From contig JAJXWV010000012.1 in assembly GCA_021781455.1 (NCBI GenBank), forward strand, positions 1 through 38,794: a stretch of 38,794 bases of DNA, in the 5' to 3' direction. The DNA comes from Acidobacteriota bacterium (GTDB lineage Bacteria; Acidobacteriota; Thermoanaerobaculia; Gp7-AA8). Below, one piece after another: positions 18,796 through 32,472 of this stretch (position 1 is the first letter of the stretch; every line of letters starts with the position of its first letter). The position numbers were made by a program, and so were the translations under genes. The notes below the pieces were generated by a model. The model had not been told where the DNA came from and searched no databases. It worked only from the letters and a program-made list of their open reading frames with translations.

Positions 18796-18864
18796 CCTGC
18801 ACCTCCCTGGTGGGGAGGCTTGCGCAGTGGAGAGAAATTTCGGAGAACCCCGCCTGAGCCGTGT

Positions 18865-19003
18865 GAGGGATTCTTACTTGAACCTGCGTAAACAGGTGGG
18901 CGCCCTACCCGTGCCGTTTTGGCTACCTTCTGCAACCCCTTTCGAGGCGAAGGTGTGCACGCGACCCTGGGACCCGAGCACCCGAAGTAAGAAAAAGCAT
19001 CGG
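18865..19003 (-). ncRNA. ssrS: 6S RNA candidate
   Basis: On the minus strand between zapA and rny the sequence can fold like 6S RNA, which binds and restrains RNA polymerase. A 9-bp closing stem pairs TTCTTACTT (18993-18985) with AAGTAAGAA (18879-18871). Inside, the 3' strand of the bubble carries the small hairpin ACCTG/CAGGT preceded by GGGCGCCC, as in known 6S RNAs. Above the bubble are CGTGC/GCACG and ACCTTC/GAAGGT, forming the terminal stem. The location after zapA is the conserved place for ssrS in proteobacteria. A CTAACT hexamer (19015-19010) could be its -10. The ends are approximate. Confidence 0.72.
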
Positions 19004-19074
19004 TTCAAGAGTTAGATCGTTCATCACGAACTCTGCAGGGACTCCGAAAGAACAACAACCAATGTTGTATTGGC

Positions 19075-22440: not shown

Positions 22441-22513
22441 TCGCAATCTCGCGACGGCAAGGGATCGCAATCTTGCGACGGACAAAGAGATCGCAATCTC
22501 GCGACGGACAAAG
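22441..22513. repeat. Three tandem 24-26-bp repeats left of the transposase
   Basis: TCGCAATCTCGCGACGG begins at 22441, 22465 and 22491, each followed by CAAGGGA or ACAAAG(AGA). The units carry a small TCGC/GCGA inverted pair. They form the left border of the REP-rich region. Confidence 0.8.
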
Positions 22514-22560
22514 CCCCGTAGGGGCGTTTGAAACTAGCCCAGGGCTTCAGCCCTGGGATT
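22512..22560. repeat. REP-like hairpin pair left of the transposase
   Basis: GCCCCGTAGGGGC at 22513-22525 is followed by CCCAGGGCT, loop TC, AGCCCTGGG at 22538-22557. Inverted relatives lie right of the transposase at 23138-23157 and 23223-23271, the arrangement expected for substrates of a REP-associated transposase. Confidence 0.75.
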
Positions 22561-22614
22561 TCCGATGTCGAAAAGACGTCGAGCCGCGGAGCGGCGATTG
22601 AGGTAGAGGATCAA

Positions 22615-23064
22615 ATGGCTCACACCTACACGAATTGCCTGTTCCATTGCGTATTCAGCACGAAGAATCGGCAACGCCTGATCAGTGAAGAAATCGCCAA
22701 GCGACTATGGCCATTCATCGGCGGCATTGCGCGCAAGAATGGATTTCGTGCACTGCAGGTGGGCGGAGACCTTGATCACGCACACGCGCTGATCTCCTTA
22801 CCACCAACGATTACGGTCGCCAAAGCGCTTCAAGAGATGAAAGGTGGCTCGTCAAAGTTCGTCAATGAGACGTTCCTCTCGCGGACATTCGGATGGCAGG
22901 ATGGATATGGCGCATTCTCGATCGGAGCGGCAGCGATTGAGGACGTGATCGCGTACATCCAGAACCAGCGTGAACACCACCAAAAGAGAACGTTCGAAGA
23001 GGAATACATCGCTTTTCTGGAGGAGAACGGCATTGAGTACGACCAGCGGTACGTGTTCGATTGA
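22615..23064 (+). mobile_element. IS200/REP-associated tyrosine transposase (TnpA-REP-like)
   Basis: 149-residue Y1-type HUH transposase. The HUH motif is His55-Ala-His57 in GGDLDHAHAL, and the likely catalytic Tyr114 is in IAYIQNQREHH. LFHCVFSTKNR at the N-terminus is typical of the IS200 group. The enzyme cuts single-stranded hairpin DNA. The ATG at 22615 has AGGTAGAGG upstream; a longer frame from 22528 reads through the REP hairpin and is unlikely. Hairpins of related sequence flank the gene on both sides, so this is probably a REP-RAYT unit. It lies between imuB and dnaE2, separating genes that are usually adjacent. No tnpB is present. The gene looks intact. Confidence 0.85.
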
Positions 23065-23382
23065 TGTCGCCATAGGAACGATTGCACGATCTCAATCGTC
23101 GCTCCGCGACTCGATGCTGATTTTGAAATGACTCGAACCCCGGGCTGAAGCCCGGGGCTACTTTCAGACGCCGCTACGCGGCTTGGCGTCGCGCCGGGTG
23201 CTTGATGAGAGTTCATCGGCAAAGAGCCCCGCAAGGGGCGATTGACATTAGCCCAGGGCTTCAGCCCGGGGCTACTTTCAGACGCCGCTACGCGGCTTAT
23301 CGTCGCGCCGGGTGTTTGATGAGAGTTCATCGGCAACGCCGCTACGCGGCTCGGCTTCGCACAATTTGAATGGTCACTTCCG
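23065..23382. repeat. REP array right of the transposase
   Basis: This 318-base gap holds no gene. CCCCGGGCT/AGCCCGGGG forms a hairpin at 23138-23157. A 72-base block (23151-23222) is repeated nearly exactly at 23265-23336, 114 bases on; it contains GCCGCTACGCGGC and a TGATGAGAGTTCATC near-palindrome. A third partial GCCGCTACGCGGC is at 23338. Between the copies lies GCCCCGCAAGGGGC, matching the left-side GCCCCGTAGGGGC. Confidence 0.85.
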
Positions 23383-28545: not shown

Positions 28546-29157
28546 CTACAGCCCGTCGATCTTCGCGGCCAGGACGAAGTCGCTGCGTGTCAGGCCATCG
28601 ACCTTGTGCGTCCAGATCGTGACGCGCACCTTCCCCCAGGCGAGATGGATGTCGGGGTGATGCCCCTGCTCCTCGGCCAGCGCGCCGATGCGATTCGTGA
28701 AGTGCAGGGCCTTCGCAAAGTCGGGGAAGGGGAATTCCTTCTCCAGATGATGGTCGTCGACCACGTGCCACCCGCCGCCCAGCTCGCGGCTCAGCGACTC
28801 GAGATCCGCCCCTTTCAGCGCCGGCACTCCGCCTCTGCAGGGGACGCATTTCTCGGCGGCCAGCGCGCTCGGCGGGGCCGCTGCGGAGCGGGCCTTCTCG
28901 CCCTTTTCGCTCTCGAGGAACTCCGCGATCTGCTGCGGCTCGACGCGATGCCGGAAGGCCTCCCGGCCGTCGATGTAGATCACCGGCACGTCGTTCTTGA
29001 AAAGCTGCAGAAGCGCCGGATCGTGATCGATGTCCACCTCGCGAAGGCGGATGCGCAGCCTGTACTGCACCTCGGCCGCCCGTATCGAGGCCTTGGCCTT
29101 GTCGCACAGCGAACACTCGTGGCGCGTGTAGAGGACCACTTCGACGGCTTCGTGCAT
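28546..29157 (-). CDS. Glutaredoxin-like domain fused to pterin-4a-carbinolamine dehydratase
   Basis: 203-residue fusion. Residues 5-80 are a glutaredoxin-like thioredoxin fold with Cys15-x-x-Cys18 in HECSLCDK and the cis-Pro in VPVIYIDG. A linker with CVPCRGG (Cys104/Cys107) leads to a DCoH-type dehydratase domain (112-203). The domain carries the active-site HHPDIHL (166-172) and THKVDGLTRSDF. The dehydratase recycles 4a-hydroxytetrahydrobiopterin after aromatic amino acid hydroxylation. I choose the ATG at 29157; it has TAGAGT 7 nt upstream. The gene is divergent from the SDR gene with only 19 bp between start codons. Confidence 0.85.
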   Translation of the reverse strand: MHEAVEVVLYTRHECSLCDKAKASIRAAEVQYRLRIRLREVDIDHDPALLQLFKNDVPVIYIDGREAFRHRVEPQQIAEFLESEKGEKARSAAAPPSALAAEKCVPCRGGVPALKGADLESLSRELGGGWHVVDDHHLEKEFPFPDFAKALHFTNRIGALAEEQGHHPDIHLAWGKVRVTIWTHKVDGLTRSDFVLAAKIDGL

Positions 29158-29176
29158 CGCATACACTCTAGCGCCC
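29158..29176. promoter_or_regulatory. Overlapping divergent -10 hexamers
   Basis: The 19-bp gap between two divergent start codons contains TACACT on the plus strand (29162-29167, 9 nt before ATG 29177) and TAGAGT on the minus strand (29170-29165, 7 nt before ATG 29157). They overlap by three bases. The -35 regions would lie inside the opposite gene, and the two promoters should exclude each other. Confidence 0.45.
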
Positions 29177-29944
29177 ATGAGCTCGAAAACGAACCTCGAC
29201 CTGACCGGAAAAGTGGTCCTCGTGACCGGAGCATCGCGCGGCATCGGACGGGAGGCCGCCATTCAGCTGGCCCGGGCTGGCGCGACCGTGGCGGTGAACT
29301 ACTGGCGGAGCGAAGCGGCGGCCCAGGAAGTCGTCGGGCAGATCGGCGGGACCGCGTTCGCCGTCGCTGCCGACGTCGCTCAGCCGGGCGAGGTCAGGAG
29401 CATGATCGACCGCGTCATCGATCGCTGCGGTCGCATCGACGTGCTGGTGAACAACGCCGCCACCTTCGCCATGAACCCGTTCGACGGCGACGATTACGAG
29501 CTGTGGCAGCAGGGATGGCAGCGCACCTTCGCGCTCAACATCTTCGGAGCGGCGAACGCAGCGTTCCTGGCCATGCGCGCCATGCGCAAGCAGGGCGGCG
29601 GCAAGATCATCAACGTGGCTTCGCGGGCCGCGTTCCGCGGCGAGACCGAGTTCGCCGACTACGGCGCCTCCAAGGCTGCGCTCGTCAACCTGACGATCTC
29701 CATCGCCCGCGCCTGTGCCAGGGACAACATCATCTCCAGCTGCGTGGCGCCGGGATTCATCGCCACGGAGATGGCGCAGTCGGAGCTGGATGCCCATTAC
29801 GAAGAGATCGTGAACCAGATTCCGCTCAAGCGCGTCGGCACCGTCGGCGACGTCGCCGGCGTGATCGTCTTCCTCGCCTCCCCGCTCGCCGATTACCTCA
29901 ACGGGACCATCGTCGACGTGAACGGCGGCTCCTGGTTCCACTAA
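29177..29944 (+). CDS. SDR family oxidoreductase (FabG-like)
   Basis: 255-residue short-chain dehydrogenase/reductase. The NAD(P)-binding TGASRGIG is at residues 18-25, NNAA near 92-95, catalytic Ser in VASRAAF and Tyr-x-x-x-Lys in YGASK. The end ASPLADYLNGTIVDVNGG is typical of classical SDRs. The Arg-rich start after the glycine motif and YWRS suggest NADPH preference. The substrate is unknown; FabG-like 3-oxoacyl reduction is possible. No fatty acid genes adjoin it. Confidence 0.9.
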   Translation: MSSKTNLDLTGKVVLVTGASRGIGREAAIQLARAGATVAVNYWRSEAAAQEVVGQIGGTAFAVAADVAQPGEVRSMIDRVIDRCGRIDVLVNNAATFAMNPFDGDDYELWQQGWQRTFALNIFGAANAAFLAMRAMRKQGGGKIINVASRAAFRGETEFADYGASKAALVNLTISIARACARDNIISSCVAPGFIATEMAQSELDAHYEEIVNQIPLKRVGTVGDVAGVIVFLASPLADYLNGTIVDVNGGSWFH

Positions 29945-30341: not shown

Positions 30342-30941
30342 TCAGCCCTTCTTCTCGGCCAGCGCGGCGTCGAGCGCTTGCTTCAGGGTGGCGTCGCCGG
30401 TCTCGATCGCGCCGAACTGCTTCCAGACGATCCTGCCATTGCGGTCGATCAGCACGCTCGCGGGGATGACCGAGGTCTGTAAGACGTTGGCGAGCTTTCC
30501 CTCGGGATCGAGAAGAATCGGATACGTCATCTTGTGCTCCGACACGAACTGCTTGACGCCGGCGGCGCCGGAATCGTCGAGGCTGACGCCGATGACCTTG
30601 AATCCCTGCGGCGCGTACTGGTCGTGCATCTTCTGCAGCTCGGGAATCTCGTATCGGCAGGGCGGGCACCAGGTTGCCCAGAGGTTGAGCAGGACGACGT
30701 TGCCGTGCTCGCTGGCAAGATCGAAGCTCTTCCCCTCGACGGTCTGCGCGGTGTAGGCCGGCATCGGAGATCCGATGGAGGTGTCGCCGGACCTGGCGGT
30801 CTGCGGAGCCGCAGCGGTTTGCGTGGCCGAGGTCTGGCCCGGAGCGGCTTTGGCCGCCTTCGGCTGGACACTCTCGCTCCGGCTGCACGCGGCCGAGGCG
30901 ACGAGGGCAAGGACAAGAGCGGCGTGAAGAAGTTTTCGCAT
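30342..30941 (-). CDS. TlpA-like thioredoxin-fold disulfide reductase, exported
   Basis: 199-residue protein. An N-terminal export signal MRKLLHAALVLALVASAAC ends in a possible but imperfect lipobox. It is followed by an Ala/Gln/Thr-rich linker of about 40 residues and a TlpA/ResA-like domain with the active-site WCPPC and the cis-Pro in IPASVLIDRNGRIVW. It should reduce disulfides in the periplasm, for example in cytochrome c maturation, though no cytochrome genes adjoin it. I choose the ATG at 30941 because it starts the signal; a GTG at 30965 is in frame. Confidence 0.87.
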   Translation of the reverse strand: MRKLLHAALVLALVASAACSRSESVQPKAAKAAPGQTSATQTAAAPQTARSGDTSIGSPMPAYTAQTVEGKSFDLASEHGNVVLLNLWATWCPPCRYEIPELQKMHDQYAPQGFKVIGVSLDDSGAAGVKQFVSEHKMTYPILLDPEGKLANVLQTSVIPASVLIDRNGRIVWKQFGAIETGDATLKQALDAALAEKKG

Positions 30942-31026
30942 CGGTTGACTCACATCCCGCGGCACTCGCGCCGCAGCCGGTATTTTCGCTCAGAACCTCG
31001 ACAGCAGTCGGTGATGACGACTGATC

Positions 31027-31566
31027 TCACAATCCTTCGCCGGGTTTGGTCGGCTCCATGCGCAGGGCGTCGTTCACCCGGTTGAAGTAGTTGAACAGCC
31101 CGGCCATCGCGGAGATCTCCACGATCTCCCCTTCGTCGTATTGCGACCGCAGTCTGGCGAAGAACGCGTCGTCGATGGCATGCGCGTCGAGGGTGAGCTG
31201 CTTTGCATACGAAAGCGCCACCTTTTCCCTGTCGTCGAACGGCCCGTTCTCGAAGTCCACGAGCGCGTCGAGCTGCTCCTGAGTCGCTCCGTGCCGCGCA
31301 GCCTGCGCGGTGTGGGAGCGGTTTCAATATTCGCAGCCGTTGATGCGCGACACGAGCGAGGCCACGAGCTCCTTGGTGCGCACCGGTACCGTTCCGGTAT
31401 TGGTGATGGCGTTCAGATGCGCCACCATGGTCTTGAGGATTTCCGGCCGGTGCGCGTAGACGCGGAACATGTTCGGCACGTTCCCCCGCTTCGCTCCGAC
31501 GTCCACGAACAGCTCCCGCACGTCGCCGGTCACTTCGTCCTTGGTGAGTCTCGGTAGTCTGGGCAT
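31027..31566 (-). CDS. AhpD-like/carboxymuconolactone decarboxylase family protein, probable selenoprotein (CxxU)
   Basis: The frame is 179 codons plus stop, with one in-frame TGA at codon 81 (31326-31324). The protein reads SRINGCEY-U-NRSHTAQAARHG: the TGA stands exactly where AhpD-like peroxidases have the second Cys of CxxCxxxH (Cys78, U81, His85). Downstream the family sequence goes on without frame change (DDREKVALSYAKQLT, EIVEISAMAGLFNYFNRVNDAL). A strong hairpin starts 3 nt after the TGA. AhpD-like selenoproteins are known in bacteria. The product would be a thiol/selenol peroxidase-related enzyme. An alternative is a nonsense mutation. TAGACT lies 6 nt before the ATG. Confidence 0.8.
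31285..31320 (-). promoter_or_regulatory. Candidate bacterial SECIS hairpin
   Basis: Directly after the UGA and one codon, CGCTCC (31320-31315) pairs with GGAGCG (31290-31285). Above a 4/3 internal loop, CCGCGCA (31310-31304) pairs with TGCGCGG (31300-31294), leaving the apical loop GGC. The loop begins 21 nt after the UGA and its first base is G, both in line with described bacterial SECIS rules. Confidence 0.7.
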
Positions 31567-31670: not shown

Positions 31671-32390
31671 TTACTTCTTCGCTGACTCTTTCTTTGCCGG
31701 GGCTTCTTTCTTTGCGGGAGCTGCTTCCTTCTCTTCCTCGGTCTCGCCCTTGCCCTTCTTGATGACCTCGGGCTCGGCCGGTGCGGCCTCCGCCACGACG
31801 CCTTCTGCGGGCGTCGGCTCCGCCTCGGCCCGGATGTGGGTCACGCCGACGACCACGCGCTCCGGATCATCGAGAACCTTCACGCCTTCCGGCAGCTTCA
31901 GGTCGGAGACGCGCAGATAGTCGTGAATGCCGAGAGTCGTGACATCGACCTCGATCGAATCCGGAATGGCGTTCGGCAGGCATTCGATGTGGAGATCGCG
32001 GACCTGGAAGTCGAGGATTCCGCCTTCCTTGACGCCGATCGCGTCGCCCGTGTGGTGGACCGGAACCGTGACTTTGATCTTCTCGTCCATCTGTACGCGG
32101 ACGAAGTCGATGTGCGTCATCTTCCGCGAGATCGGGTCGATCTGGATCTCCTTGATCATCGCGTGCCGCTGCTGGTCGGTGTCCGTCATCTTCAGCAGGA
32201 AGATGGAACGCACGCCATGCTGGCTCTTCTGAATGAGCTCCGAAACCGTCTTGCGGTCGACGACGATGGGAACGGCCTCGCGGTGACCGCCATAGACGAC
32301 CGCCGGGACTTTTCCGCTCACACGAAGGCGGCGCGCCACCCCTTTACCGGTGCTATCGCGGCGCGTTACTTCCAAACTCAGCTCAGCCAT
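31671..32390 (-). CDS. rplY: 50S ribosomal protein L25 (CTC type)
   Basis: 239-residue L25/TL5/CTC protein that binds 5S rRNA. The N-terminal L25 domain (residues 1-90) has KGVARRLRVSGKVPAVVYGG and ISRKMTHIDFVRV, and the C-terminal TL5-type beta domain follows to about 185. A long acidic-basic tail ends with a run of Ala/Lys/Glu repeats. Start: ATG at 32390 with AAGGAG 8 nt upstream, preferred over the in-frame TTG at 32396. It follows prs on the same strand, a common order (prs-rplY), but a palindromic element lies between. Confidence 0.95.
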   Translation of the reverse strand: MAELSLEVTRRDSTGKGVARRLRVSGKVPAVVYGGHREAVPIVVDRKTVSELIQKSQHGVRSIFLLKMTDTDQQRHAMIKEIQIDPISRKMTHIDFVRVQMDEKIKVTVPVHHTGDAIGVKEGGILDFQVRDLHIECLPNAIPDSIEVDVTTLGIHDYLRVSDLKLPEGVKVLDDPERVVVGVTHIRAEAEPTPAEGVVAEAAPAEPEVIKKGKGETEEEKEAAPAKKEAPAKKESAKK

Positions 32391-32472
32391 GGACAAGACT
32401 CCTTATCTGGGATCCGACGGAAGCAAGATAAACCGTTGAGCATGCTCGTTATTCCCGGGCTAGCCGCCCCGC

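Follow-up and report, generated by a model that had tools for sequence, protein, structure and literature searches.

A predicted AhpD-like selenoprotein of Acidobacteriota with a covarying SECIS stem-loop and aligned Sec and Cys homologues

AhpD-like selenoproteins of the COG2128/YciW type, which carry a CxxU motif and match the TIGR01926 model, have been known from the Sargasso Sea since 2005 (PMC1088965) and appear in current reviews (PMC9312934, PMC13188914). The published CxxU examples that we found come from marine metagenomes, as reads, and from a small number of genomes, that of a Clostridia species among them, whereas the gene described here is from a member of the Thermoanaerobaculia. 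It shares with the Sargasso Sea type the TIGR01926 model, the CxxU motif with UGA at its second position, and widespread Cys homologues. Our literature search returned no account of selenoproteins of this Thermoanaerobaculia lineage, of a prs-rplY-tlpA context, or of a switch from CxxU to TxxC. The selenoprotein kind itself is known; what seems undescribed in the papers searched is the Acidobacteriota lineage, together with a CxxU-to-TxxC change coupled to the loss of selA.

The window, that is, the whole 38,794-nucleotide stretch of DNA that was analysed, is contig C13 of an assembly of 4.88 Mb in 90 contigs, rated 100% complete. The features of the gene are as follows.

31027-31566, minus strand: coding sequence of the AhpD-like predicted selenoprotein, ATG to terminal TGA, 179 residues with codon 81 as Sec; matches to PF02627 and TIGR01926 above cut-off, orthologues co-linear over 179 residues.
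31324-31326, minus strand: codon 81, a UGA predicted to encode Sec, which is the second position of C-E-Y-U and is followed by N-R-S-H85; TGA in 27 other genomes, TGC in 9.
31333-31335, minus strand: codon for Cys78, partner cysteine of C-x-x-U; kept in 28/28 Sec forms, replaced in 8/9 Cys forms.
31312-31314, minus strand: codon for His85, the putative proton-relay histidine with Glu66 and Tyr80; spacing identical to that of PA0269.

Translation of the minus strand from 31566 to 31027 gives an ATG, 80 codons before the TGA at 31326-31324, 98 codons after it and a terminal TGA at 31029-31027, the frame being otherwise uninterrupted. The earlier note had placed a single in-frame TGA at this site, inside an otherwise intact AhpD/CMD gene and on the second cysteine of a CxxCxxxH motif (Cys78, U81, His85). 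The site proved exact to the base, and all three residues lie where it put them. Its further claim, that family sequence runs past the TGA to the natural stop, also holds, the TIGR01926 match spanning both sides of codon 81. We rule out a second Sec codon at the terminal UGA: one orthologue has TAG at that codon and there is no conservation downstream, so it is an ordinary stop. We conclude that the gene almost certainly encodes a full-length, 179-residue AhpD-like predicted selenoprotein, with UGA at codon 81 read as Sec.

The read-through protein scores 103 bits against TIGR01926 ("peroxidase-related", COG2128-like; cut-off 81.8, residues 2-173) and 60.9 bits against the CMD family PF02627 (cut-off 23). 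The Cys/Sec pairs by which the CxxU family is recognised are present: 28 of the aligned homologues have TGA and 9 have TGC. The model for the YciW-related (seleno)protein GroundWater_YciW, NF053654, covers residues 1-171 with an E value of 2e-28, yet the score of 99.3 bits lies below the equivalog cut-off of 310, as for a related but separate subfamily. Against canonical AhpD (TIGR00777) the protein reached 22.6 bits, the cut-off being 191.95.

An AlphaFold2 model built from the window sequence and 23 relatives has a pLDDT of 94.8, and its best PDB matches are the AhpD-core proteins 2prr (R. eutropha) and 6k40 (D. radiodurans AhpD), both with a TM score of 0.89; a sequence profile finds the same group. 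The AhpD-type relay is complete, as E66-C78-Y80-U81-H85 with the spacing E-(12)-C-(2)-Y-(1)-U-(4)-H. The same spacing is seen in PA0269 (2o4d/2ijc; Glu36-Cys48-Tyr50-Cys51-His55) and in M. tuberculosis AhpD (Glu118-Cys130-His132-Cys133-His137), and the E-C-Y-C-H arrangement of 2prr is likewise identical. In our alignment E66 and residue 81 are invariant and H85 nearly so (at least 90%). 2prr, 6k40 and PA0269 differ from the window protein in having Cys for Sec and are 24-31% identical to it. M. tuberculosis AhpD shares the relay residues, the CMD core and a recognisable fold (1gu9/1knc), but its motif lies elsewhere in the chain and it has a second Cys where the window protein has the predicted Sec.

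The following mechanism can be proposed. SelB and a Sec-tRNA(UCA) would decode the UGA at codon 81 as Sec owing to a SECIS stem-loop directly behind it, and the protein, as modelled, would adopt the all-helical CMD/AhpD fold. Glu66, Tyr80 and His85 would deprotonate or orient Sec81, which would reduce a hydroperoxide and become a selenenic acid; Cys78 would then close a selenenylsulfide with Sec81, to be reduced by a thiol partner, which may be a dihydrolipoyl protein or one resembling TlpA or thioredoxin. We infer the peroxidase activity, the substrate, the reductant and the roles of residues 78 and 81 by homology to the solved AhpD-core proteins, at the 24-31% identity given above. Two genes flank the coding sequence on the same strand.

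31671-32396, minus strand: rplY (bL25 ribosomal protein), upstream neighbour; adjoins the selenoprotein gene in six same-family loci.
30342-30965, minus strand: TlpA/ResA-like thiol-disulfide oxidoreductase with a WCPPC motif, downstream neighbour; downstream in 5/6 same-family loci.

The gene order prs-rplY-ahpD-tlpA is conserved, and the TlpA-like protein is a candidate functional partner, as reductant. Shared gene order need not imply shared function, and both upstream neighbours are housekeeping genes. That the enzyme is a peroxidase, as its family suggests, is somewhat more probable than not. It may instead be a selenoprotein that passes electrons to a peroxiredoxin as a disulfide/selenenylsulfide adaptor, or one with a specialised substrate, like the related debrominase Bmp8; this alternative concerns the chemistry only and not the Sec reading. 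The AhpD-like fold also occurs in reductase adaptors (AhpD to AhpC), a debrominase is among the fold and sequence matches (6ohi/6ohj), and the conserved TlpA-like neighbour would suit such a role. Conversely, all five of the five relay residues of the AhpD/PA0269 peroxidases are kept, with identical spacing. We regard this alternative as a serious one, though the less probable of the two.

Whether UGA at codon 81 specifies Sec at all can be judged first from the homologues. The earlier note had suggested aligning Sec and Cys homologues, and the two kinds do align at codon 81. Among 60 relatives, TGA was found at exactly this codon in seven genomes of the same family (66-82% identity) and in two of the same class (51-52%); a further genome of the same class, G033 (50% identity), has TGC. 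A Terriglobia record (L061) again has TGA. Codon 81 is thus TGA in 11 of the 12 near relatives, window included, and TGC in one. No orthologue was found in the same-genus genome G001, which is 87% complete. A phylum sample of 396 genomes added 17 further TGA loci and eight TGC loci, 38-54% identical, which brings the codon-level alignment of Acidobacteriota to 28 Sec forms, counting the window gene, and 9 Cys forms. As a separate observation, more distant AhpD-like homologues (about 25-39% identity; Acidobacteriota, Chloroflexi and Gammaproteobacteria) have one in-frame TGA at the corresponding Cys; these include L035, L038, L043, L048, L062-L066, L068 and L070. Several separate AhpD-like selenoprotein subfamilies therefore seem to exist.

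The segment behind the UGA was compared between the Sec and Cys forms.

31294-31310, minus strand: predicted SECIS upper stem-loop, CCGCGCA-GGC-TGCGCGG, 7 bp with a GGC apical loop, 20 nt from UGA to loop; assessed by folding, by comparison of the 28 Sec with the 9 Cys forms, by a synonymous-codon null and by compensatory changes.

Counted from the UGA, columns +17 to +33 of the Sec forms pair as a 7-bp stem whose GGC loop is invariant. The helix is perfectly Watson-Crick paired in 26 of the 28; of the other two, one contains a G-U pair and the other one mismatch. In all, 12 distinct stem sequences occur. When synonymous codons were randomised with the proteins held fixed, 0.03 perfect stems were expected and no more than one appeared in any of 2000 trials. 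Both-sided (compensatory) changes are found in six of the seven stem pairs, and 99.5% of the cells pair. The covariation score of the stem is 0.749, against 0.266 when shuffled, and slid controls all gave 0.166 or less; RNAalifold recovers the same helix unaided. The stem is absent from all 9 Cys forms, which have 0-3 Watson-Crick pairs there, even where their amino acids resemble those of the Sec forms. Our argument for the SECIS element rests on this covariation, because the single-sequence folding energy of the region stands out only moderately (rank 3-32 among about 160 windows of sequence). Published criteria for bacterial SECIS elements are a loop of 3-9 nt, a stem of 4-16 bp, a G in the first two loop positions, a spacing of 16-37 nt and an MFE of -7.5 or below (PMC13188914). 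The present element falls within every one of these, with its 3-nt GGC loop, 7 bp, 20-nt spacing and -23.5 kcal/mol for a 57-nt segment.

A sequencing or assembly error, the true codon being TGC or TGT in an ordinary CxxC AhpD-like gene, is highly improbable in the light of these comparisons. TGA is one base away from either codon and the contig belongs to a draft assembly of 90 contigs, but 27 genomes, assembled independently and spread over many genera, also have TGA at this codon, each together with a matching SECIS stem, and the Cys-form genes are without the stem.

The possibility that translation ends at codon 81, and that the downstream part of a pseudogene is decaying, is just as remote. 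In this code UGA normally signals a stop, and the gene itself terminates with UGA. Against this, purifying selection is equal on either side of codon 81, the median dN/dS being 0.28 before and 0.29 after the UGA, rough values since dS is near saturation. In the eight closest genomes, of the 93 codons behind the UGA, 38 vary at position 1, 26 at position 2 and 80 at position 3. On these sequence comparisons, we conclude that selection at the protein level is continuing past the UGA. Moreover, relatives have their terminal stop at the same place, they keep the prs-rplY-ahpD-tlpA order, and the stem behind the UGA covaries. Relaxed or frame-shifted downstream sequence was looked for in the relatives, and none was seen.

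The earlier note had also proposed searching the genome for selA, selB, selC and selD, and all four are present. The proteins score 370 bits (selB), 473 bits (selA) and 355 bits (selD), each above its curated cut-off, and the tRNA-Sec (selC) has the anticodon UCA and a long variable arm. The selD gene (positions 1501-2439 of L010; C30:12837-13775 in its own genome) has one in-frame TGA at the catalytic Cys position, in GG-U-ACK, and behind this TGA lies a stem with a GGA loop. With a TGA at this position and a stem-loop behind it, SelD of the same genome appears to be itself a predicted selenoprotein, and so a second gene using Sec.

The presence of selA follows the form of codon 81. It was found in 27 of 27 Sec-form genomes checked and in 2 of the 9 Cys-form genomes, being absent from the other 7 (Fisher P 4e-6, a value that ignores kinship among the genomes). 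Within the class of the window selA is uninformative, being present in 30/30 genomes checked, and the contrast is seen at the level of the phylum only. In six of the seven Cys-form genomes that lack selA, no tRNA-Sec was found at E 1e-9; the seventh, G194, has an 85-nt tRNA-Sec match that is ambiguous between tRNA-Sec and tRNA-Ser, so that we take the tRNA-Sec counts of the Cys-form genomes as supporting evidence only. Together, the Sec machinery, the Sec/Cys alignment, the covarying stem and the co-occurrence with selA support the earlier reading of the gene as a probable selenoprotein. The conserved TGA, the SECIS stem, the co-occurrence with selA and the selection past the UGA exclude, for practical purposes, a sequencing error, a pseudogene and an ordinary stop. 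UGA read-through and codes with UGA as tryptophan occur elsewhere, but a reading of codon 81 as tryptophan or by near-cognate read-through has a negligible chance of being correct, as UGA terminates most genes of this family, the window gene included, codon 81 alternates with Cys only, the UGA is followed by a SECIS-type stem, and the genome encodes the whole Sec machinery.

One point of the earlier description, that position 81 is the "resolving" cysteine, appears doubtful, since residue 81 is invariant and Cys78 is lost in 8 of the 9 Cys forms. The counterpart of position 81 in M. tuberculosis AhpD is Cys133, the residue that reportedly attacks the peroxide in the mechanism of Koshkin et al. 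(2003). In the eight Cys forms (L034, L071-L073, L076, L078, L079 and L081), Cys78 is replaced by Thr or a similar residue, giving TxxC; L074 is the only Cys form that keeps CxxC. The pattern is not uniform across the superfamily, Sestrin2 having kept the first cysteine and lost the second (PMC4674687). In view of the opposite loss in Sestrin2, we regard it as likely, on the pattern of residue conservation, that residue 81 and not Cys78 attacks the peroxide. It is conceivable, at a little under even chances, that when the Sec machinery is lost Sec81 changes to Cys, the SECIS element decays and Cys78 is replaced by Thr or a similar residue (CxxU to TxxC). This change may mark the passage from a two-residue, selenenylsulfide cycle to a single-cysteine cycle in which the C-terminal residue of the motif attacks.

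Other features of the window are listed here as observations in their own right.

22512-22557, minus strand; 23138-23183, plus strand; 23225-23271, minus strand; 23252-23297, plus strand: four Rfam Acido-Lenti-1 elements (RF01687).
22528-23064, plus strand: open reading frame of an IS200-like Y1 transposase (PF01797, E 3e-26).
28546-29262, minus strand: glutaredoxin-like domain (PF05768) fused to pterin-4a-carbinolamine dehydratase (PF01329) in one open reading frame; relatives L056 and L058 have the same fusion.
18843-19044, minus strand: 6S RNA gene (RF00013, 79 bits).

The four Acido-Lenti-1 elements, all within 22512-23297, overlap the transposase or lie just behind it. Genome-wide there are 33 copies, 24 of them above cut-off, and many form inverted pairs about 100 nt apart. 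Acido-Lenti-1 looks more like a REP/BIME repeat mobilised by a RAYT-type transposase than like a conventional sRNA.

The selenoprotein gene is broken at the UGA by automatic annotation. Its recognition adds a well-documented lineage of predicted AhpD-like selenoenzymes that different genera retain, in a phylum that is abundant but little studied. The 28 Sec and 9 Cys homologues, with their fixed SECIS geometry, form a compact test set for the exchange of Sec for Cys, and the same set bears on the identity of the peroxide-attacking residue in the AhpD CxxC motif. If the change from CxxU to TxxC took place as outlined above, the Acidobacteriota enzyme would be a natural experiment.
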